From: Deltaproteobacteria bacterium
Lineage (GTDB): Bacteria; Desulfobacterota; Syntrophia; Syntrophales; UBA2210
Length of the DNA: 46,629 nt
Assembly: GCA_016933215.1 (NCBI GenBank)
Contig: JAFGBH010000021.1
Span: 1-46,629 of the forward strand
Direction of reading: 5' to 3'
Below the pieces are notes generated by a model. The model made no database searches. It was not told the origin of the DNA and saw only the letters and a program-made list of their open reading frames with translations. Positions 61 through 1,108 of this stretch are shown here, one piece after another. A program made the position numbers and the translations under genes. Numbering within the stretch: the stretch's first letter is position 1; every line of letters begins with the position of its first letter.

Positions 61-585
61 TCACAGTTTATTTTTCTCGAACAAGTAAAAAAGCCCGATA
101 TAGATCACCGTCAAGATGGCAATCATAACCCAGTGATTCAATCCGAGGATATCGGCAAGTGTTATCTTGCCGTAGCTGCCCCAGACAAGGATCGTCGATT
201 TCATTGCCGGATATACCTCTGCGTAGATGGCGGCGCCGATCAGCATGCCGATTATACCGATTAATGCATCCCATCTTCCCTCTCCCAGGGCACCGGCAGC
301 CGTGCCCGGACAATATCCCAGAAGTGCCCATCCGATTCCAAATATGAGGCCACCGATGATATTTGCTCCGAGGGATGTCGCTTTGACACTCAAGGTGATG
401 ATGCCGAAATCTTTCAAGAGATATATGCCTATCATTCCCACGATAATCGCGGAAAGCATGAATTTGAAGATTGTCATATCCAGCAGACGCATTGCTCCGA
501 CCTGCTTGTCATAGCGGATGACATGCGCCCTCTGCATGAGGAATCCAAAGAGAATTCCCGTAACGAGTCCGTAGATAAGCTCCAT
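61..585 (-). CDS. YeeE/YedE family membrane protein, Cys-containing half
   Basis: This 174-residue, strongly hydrophobic protein matches the C-terminal-type half of the YeeE/YedE family, channel-like membrane proteins for thiosulfate or related sulfur compounds, with selenium also proposed. An N-terminal stretch with GFLMQRAHVIRYD (about 14-26) and the conserved GYCPGT motif (Cys92) are visible, with roughly four membrane segments. It starts 4 nt after the stop of the Sec-containing half-protein upstream, and its AAGGAG ribosome site lies in the last codons of that gene, so the two are probably translationally coupled and assemble together. Its own stop codon is TGA, which shows that TGA also terminates here. 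The substrate is inferred only from the family. Confidence 0.88.
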   Translation of the reverse strand: MELIYGLVTGILFGFLMQRAHVIRYDKQVGAMRLLDMTIFKFMLSAIIVGMIGIYLLKDFGIITLSVKATSLGANIIGGLIFGIGWALLGYCPGTAAGALGEGRWDALIGIIGMLIGAAIYAEVYPAMKSTILVWGSYGKITLADILGLNHWVMIAILTVIYIGLFYLFEKNKL

Positions 586-589
586 GTCG

Positions 590-1108
590 CTACTCCTTTC
601 CGTAAAGGATGCGTGCCATTATCACACCGGCACCGAAAAAGCACAGCAATGAGACAAAACCACTTACCGACATCTGAGCCAGACCGCTCAGTCCGTGCCC
701 GCTCGGTCACCCTCCGGCCATTCGGGCTCCGAAGAGGGCTATAATCCCGCCGAGAAAGGCGATGACAAACCGCTTTGTTCTGGCGGGGCCAAACCTTTCT
801 TTCCACATTGGTGGTACAGCGGTTACGGAAAAATCACGAGACATCCGGGCGGCACCAAAGGAACCCAGGATAATGCCAACCACGAACAGCATCTGCCAGT
901 CAACTTTGACCTTTGTTTTTGAGAAATAGGGCGAATTTGTCACATGGTCCGATACAATCGATTTTTCGAGAAAACCGGCGGAGCGAACAAATGTGGTTGA
1001 TGCTCCGAAATACTGTCCCGCCACGAGGACGGAAAGACACAGGACAACACCCGCAAGGGCACCCGCAACATAGGGCGACCACGGCTTCTGATGCAGTAAC
1101 TCGCTCAT
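590..1108 (-). CDS. YeeE/YedE family selenoprotein (in-frame TGA = Sec134)
   Basis: Conventional reading stops at TGA 707-709 after 133 residues, in the middle of the family signature. Read as selenocysteine, the frame gives 172 residues with GARMAGG-U-PSGHGLSG at 127-142, where related proteins have Cys at U134. The extra 38 residues supply the rest of the motif and a last membrane segment (about 146-165). The product is then about as long as its 174-residue neighbour, and the TAG at 590-592 lies 4 nt before that gene. A hairpin fitting a bacterial SECIS follows the TGA. The ATG at 1106-1108 has AAAGGAGG 11 nt upstream, a slightly long gap. Predicted role: one half of a two-protein sulfur- or selenium-compound channel. 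A recent nonsense mutation is the alternative, but the perfect hairpin and conserved downstream coding argue against it. Confidence 0.85.
593..598 (-). promoter_or_regulatory. Ribosome binding site inside the end of the selenoprotein gene
   Basis: AAGGAG encodes the final Lys-Glu of the read-through product and sits 7 nt before the ATG at 585. The upstream frame therefore ends exactly over the initiation site of the next gene. This is typical of coupled genes and indicates that the frame past the TGA is genuinely translated. Confidence 0.75.
674..709 (-). promoter_or_regulatory. Candidate bacterial SECIS element with Sec TGA codon
   Basis: Reading the minus strand, TGA (709-707) is followed by C, a context that favours recoding. 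After 15 nt comes a perfect hairpin, CTGAGC-GGTCTG-GCTCAG, at 691-674. The loop contains GGTCT, the same apical sequence that SelB recognises in the E. coli fdhF element, placed about one codon further from the TGA than in fdhF. The hairpin lies inside codons for the conserved GLSGLAQ segment, so coding and structure coexist. No selA, selB, selC or selD is present in the window to confirm the machinery. Confidence 0.8.

Follow-up and report, generated by a model that had tools for sequence, protein, structure and literature searches.

Probable selenocysteine at a conserved channel cysteine of a split YeeE-like half-transporter in a member of the Syntrophales

We report a gene for a half-size membrane protein of the YeeE/YedE family in which an in-frame UGA codon, standing where homologues have a conserved cysteine, very probably encodes selenocysteine (Sec). 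The gene lies in a 46,629-nucleotide stretch of DNA from a member of the Syntrophales; this whole stretch was analyzed and is called the window below. The Sec reading had been proposed in a first-pass annotation and is strongly supported by exchange between TGA and Cys codons among homologues, by a hairpin specific to the TGA copies, by the presence of SelA, SelB and SelD, and by an intact frame downstream of the TGA. We hold this reading and the family assignment, both of which come from sequence comparison, with high confidence. That Sec is in fact inserted, that the halves pair, and what they carry in which direction is inferred, and we lean with more reserve toward the functional part of the proposal.

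The same annotation knew of no described Sec form, and here it has to be corrected. A Sec-containing YeeE/YedE family (PF04143) was tabulated in 2022 (PMC9312934), and a 2026 review (PMC13188914) lists a YeeE/YedE thiosulfate transporter selenoprotein with the motif GUxSG; WP_012471001.1 is the listed example. Our gene belongs to this listed family: it shares the Pfam family and the Sec at the conserved Cys, and its G-U-P-S-G fits the published motif. Two primary papers on which the review draws (PMC2398784, PMC5029168) make no mention of the Sec YeeE/YedE family in the main-text passages searched, and in the main texts we found no account of its division into halves, its RNA element, its partner or how it is distributed.

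An in-frame TGA in a conserved column

The minus-strand frame from 1108 to 593, with the TAG at 592-590, encodes 172 residues and contains a single internal TGA, at codon 134 (Table 1). The read-through length of 172 residues and the position of the TGA at the conserved Cys agree with the first-pass annotation, as does the placement of the TAG 4 nt ahead of the partner gene, whose ATG is at 585; the number of sense codons between the TGA (709-707) and the TAG is 38, not the 39 given there. As it also predicted, standard callers shorten the gene, since translation with table 11 ends at 133 aa. The Pfam model PF04143 (Sulf_transp) covers residues 4-162 at 90.3 bits and so spans the TGA, around which the local motif is GGUPSGHG.

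Table 1. Locations of the half-transporter genes, the predicted Sec codon and hairpin, and the related full-length genes
Feature	Location	Strand	Basis or details
PmpA-type YeeE/YedE half-transporter gene, 172 aa with predicted U134	590..1108	-	ATG at 1108, TAG at 590-592; PF04143; 56 TGA and 99 Cys homologues
UGA codon predicted to be read as selenocysteine (U134), aligned to Cys293 of S. thermophila YeeE/TsuA (6LEO)	707..709	-	Homologue alignment
Predicted bacterial SECIS hairpin	674..691	-	Stem CUGAGC/GCUCAG, loop GGUCUG
Partner half-transporter, PmpB type, 174 aa, Cys92 = Cys91 of 6LEO	61..585	-	Ordinary terminal TGA
Full-length TsuA-like gene with TGA at the Cys91 site	L198:1360-2343 (G253:C31:13359-14342)	-	6LEO alignment
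Full-length TsuA-like gene with TGA at the Cys91 site	L201 (G456:C216:897-1811)		74% identical to the G253 copy, TGA at the same codon

We gathered 155 distinct homologues by similarity to the query with Cys at codon 134, drawing on 60 relatives, 395 genomes of the phylum and a species collection. In the codon-134 column, 56 of them have TGA, 68 have TGC and 31 have TGT, and no other codon occurs, so the TGA/TGC(T) switch that the annotation had suggested looking for is present (56 against 99). The column is invariant in a 36-sequence alignment when TGA is read as C. The TGA form was found in about 41 of the 97 genomes with a match in the phylum scan. The TGA and Cys states are intermixed on a quick tree of 110 sequences, which requires nine Sec/Cys changes, at least three of them forced by well-supported branches.

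A few matches had to be set aside. Three homologue matches in the phylum scan carried TAA; one of these, in L179, has Cys in the column followed by 35 codons before the TAA, so the alignment overruns the gene's own end. An internal TGA in G115 lies upstream of the conserved start and outside the codon-134 column. A search of plasmids returned distant YeeE proteins only.

Two further observations concern the distribution of the TGA form. One TGA copy (L037, G033:C26:122926-123423) has only 44-45% identity and the motif GUPLGHG; it has a different but stable hairpin after its TGA and branches on the quick tree as a Sec lineage of its own. Two genomes (G006, on contig C51, and G054) have a TGA copy and also a more distant Cys copy of the half-transporter, and these may form a selenium-dependent pair.

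The region after the TGA shows a purifying pattern. Differences there fall at third, first and second codon positions in the ratio 29387 : 15335 : 7235, and pairwise counts of codons with a single change give 18128 synonymous to 4226. It is therefore very improbable that the TGA is a true stop in a gene decayed to a 133-residue remnant, or a sequencing error. Standard gene callers do stop at this codon, and an intact tRNA-Sec is absent from the assembly, as a remnant or an error would allow; against this, the same TGA stands in 56 distinct homologues whose tails run for 36-47 codons (35-51 in the Cys copies) and end at the normal place, the third-position bias holds downstream of the TGA, and the PmpB partner gene follows every TGA copy. 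Decay after the TGA, which the first-pass annotation had named as evidence against Sec, was seen in none of the 56 copies.

The downstream hairpin and the selenium machinery

Numbered from the T of the TGA, the predicted SECIS stem pairs positions 19-24 with 31-36, beginning 15 nt after the UGA, and its loop begins 21 nt after the UGA. The first base of the loop is G, the usual arrangement in bacterial SECIS elements. The annotation had pointed to 674-709 for an RNA element, and the conserved hairpin indeed lies there, ending at 674. Of the 56 TGA copies, 55 retain the hairpin or a form offset by one base (18-24/30-37), but the hairpin was defined on these copies, and the fair test is the contrast with the Cys copies rather than the raw count: it occurs in 7 of 34 near Cys copies and 8 of 65 far ones.

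Base pairing between positions 19 and 36 provides a second contrast. The exchange of C-G for U-A at this pair affects the first position of a Leu codon and the third position of a Gln codon and is hence silent; the two bases covary among the TGA copies (Fisher p 4e-9) but do not among the Cys copies (p 0.27), with no correction for relatedness in either value. Mean folding z-scores were -0.96 for TGA copies, +0.31 for near Cys copies and +0.04 for far Cys copies. The loop codons are Leu-Ala or Ser-Leu in nearly all TGA copies and usually X-Met in near Cys copies, which suggests that the protein sequence is under constraint from the RNA element. The folding check that had been proposed gave a divided answer: in the window sequence alone the hairpin does not exceed shuffled sequences in stability (z -1.0 to -1.6), but the TGA and Cys groups differ. 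A search of positions 500-1200 with Rfam found no SECIS, but neither did it match the SelD locus of the same genome, where a TGA also lies in frame, so Rfam is no test of SECIS elements here.

The genome from which the window comes is a draft of 2.69 Mb in 102 contigs (97.8% complete). It encodes SelB (348 bits), SelA (595 bits) and SelD (375 bits), all above curated cut-offs. In the selD gene (L018, G000:C61:84488-85417), a TGA lies in frame at the catalytic position (SGAG-U-ACK) and a hairpin comes after it; the gene product is probably a second selenoprotein of this genome. The sel genes that the annotation expected are thus present except for selC: we found no intact tRNA-Sec in the draft assembly with a covariance model, with ARAGORN around selA, selB and selD, or with a relative's gene as query. 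The relative's selC matched only over 27 nt of its 3' end, in a piece located between open frames at G000:C102:6467-6493 (L176:1501-1527). Elements that integrate at selC can leave such 3' fragments, and the piece is possibly an integration-site remnant. All ten relatives tested have a tRNA-Sec, each above 73 bits. In the window's assembly, 4 of 10 tRNA-like matches are no more than 10 nt from the end of a contig, which makes loss of selC in assembly credible, and we consider such loss the likely explanation for its absence.

An in-frame TGA by itself cannot separate Sec from other read-through, and UGA might instead be generally reassigned, or suppressed as Trp or another amino acid. We regard this as even less probable than a remnant or an error. 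UGA is the ordinary terminal stop of the partner gene, as the first-pass annotation had stated, and of 46 of the 56 TGA homologues themselves; having two meanings within one gene favors a local signal over an altered code, and the earlier statement that the code is not reassigned therefore holds. Wherever the column does not hold TGA it holds Cys, the downstream hairpin is specific to the TGA copies, and SelA, SelB and SelD are present. Under the Sec reading, SelB with Sec-tRNA would decode UGA 707-709 as selenocysteine, guided by the hairpin directly downstream within the coding sequence.

Family, partner and probable substrate

Alignment to S. thermophila YeeE/TsuA (6LEO) places U134 at Cys293 and Cys92 of the partner at Cys91, identifying the two predicted proteins as the C-terminal (PmpA type) and N-terminal (PmpB type) halves of a split YeeE, a point that the first-pass annotation had not noted. 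The partner is a constant feature: each of the 56 TGA copies has a PmpB gene just downstream, and in none of these PmpB genes is the Cys codon replaced by TGA. In an earlier description (PMC11582611), PmpA and PmpB are short proteins that correspond to the C- and N-terminal halves of YeeE and have cysteines 293 and 91; the full-length protein cannot do without either cysteine. The pair in the window likewise consists of two half-size membrane proteins with these positions, but the PmpA cysteine is encoded here by UGA, and the halves have 172 and 174 aa rather than about 130. In S. thermophila TsuA/YeeE (6LEO, 8J4C), for which a cysteine relay model has been proposed (PMC11073785), both halves have homologous regions and two of the three relay cysteines have counterparts. 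The differences are that there are two genes here, with Sec replacing the first cysteine, that Cys22 has no aligned counterpart (no third relay cysteine was visible when the partner was aligned to 6LEO), and that within the window's first 2.7 kb no YeeD/TusA gene adjoins the pair.

Neither of two more specific family names could be applied. The TsuA equivalog models score the half protein below their cut-offs (NF052577, 52.8 against 400 bits; NF041049, 48.9 against 645 bits), as expected for a half protein, and we did not file it as a TsuA equivalog. Filing as a YedE selenium transporter was likewise rejected: TIGR04112 has no match to the 172-aa protein and gives the partner 35.9 bits against a cut-off of 200, and NF033796 gives the 172-aa protein 33.7 against 350. 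By model scores both halves are nearer to TsuA than to the selenium YedE. An AlphaFold model was set aside (pTM 0.40, poor around residue 134, no PDB match).

The genes around the TGA copies vary and include rhodanese, TauE-like exporter, cysteine-desulfurase-like and ferritin-like genes. In the window, a ferredoxin-thioredoxin reductase beta chain and a glutaredoxin-like protein adjoin the pair at 1191-1801 on the minus strand. The NCBIfam model closest to this beta chain is that of the double-Sec FtrB (NF041072), far below cut-off, and the chain has Cys throughout. We dropped these genes as functional partners; they are near only one of the 56 TGA copies, that of the window itself, many of the loci having about 1.5 kb of flank.

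If the halves act together, the PmpA-type protein would pair with the PmpB-type protein from the next gene to form one YeeE-like channel in the inner membrane. Sec would replace the first channel cysteine (Cys293 in TsuA) as the residue that an entering sulfur anion meets, and the substrate would then be passed on to Cys92 of the partner. What the pair carries across the inner membrane is most likely thiosulfate or another reactive sulfur species. Compared with a thiol, a selenolate is more nucleophilic, and it is ionized at neutral pH, so Sec could accept sulfane sulfur in a covalent bond or hold a reactive sulfur species more firmly than a thiol does. The substrate, the direction of transport and the covalent chemistry of the Sec half-transporter are what we infer from these comparisons.

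We also considered that the pair might handle a selenium compound (selenide, selenite or selenosulfate) instead of sulfur, a proposal that differs in substrate only and that we think unlikely. The first-pass annotation had noted a link between YedE and selenium; a distant YedE subfamily is indeed linked to selenium metabolism by comparative genomics (PMC5322559), but it is a different subfamily from ours. It shares the superfamily and the invariant Cys; its connection to selenium genes is one of context and does not come from Sec in the protein. In one relative (L126), a cysteine-desulfurase-like gene with a weak Se/S-carrier tail lies upstream, which would also suit a selenium substrate. The model scores given above, with TIGR04112 far below its cut-off, and neighborhoods that hold rhodanese and a TauE-type exporter and no fixed selenium set argue for sulfur.

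The UGA might in addition act as a selenium switch, with synthesis stopping at codon 134 and the transporter off when selenium is low, and the protein completed when selenium is available. This is compatible with the Sec reading, and we give it a similarly small chance. The truncated half would be without the last helix, dual products and selenium dependence are generally known for UGA decoding, and the separate Cys paralogue in some relatives (G006, G054) could take over; most TGA genomes, however, show no Cys paralogue among the 60 relatives and in the phylum scan.

Selenocysteine at the other channel cysteine, and implications

A scan with PF04143 also found a full-length relative in G253 with a TGA at codon 94, which aligns to Cys91 of 6LEO; the counterpart of Cys293 remains Cys. 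With the second copy, in G456, this TGA is conserved in two genera, and Cys paralogues occur elsewhere. Both copies have a strong hairpin after the TGA. A tRNA-Sec was found in G456 (78.8 bits) and not in G253, and no further TGA at the Cys91 site turned up in 148 genomes of the class of G253. We found no description of Sec at this site, and the published listing names only the GUxSG site. We think it probable that Sec arose at either essential channel cysteine depending on lineage, at Cys293 in the split PmpA and at Cys91 in full-length TsuA-like proteins (G253, G456).

The family is already on published selenoprotein lists, and the gain here is in mechanism, partner, RNA element and distribution, not in discovery. 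The gene is also a warning that standard annotation cuts such genes short. What the channel cysteines do in YeeE-type sulfur uptake has been modeled from structures and mutants, and widespread natural exchange of Sec and Cys at the first-contact residue, in several lineages, is material for testing the relay chemistry: Sec/Cys variants could address whether this residue reacts with the substrate or only hydrogen-bonds to it. If Sec indeed arose at both cysteines, the sulfur relay would be a repeated target of selenium chemistry, and both sites would offer natural Sec/Cys variants with which to test the relay model.
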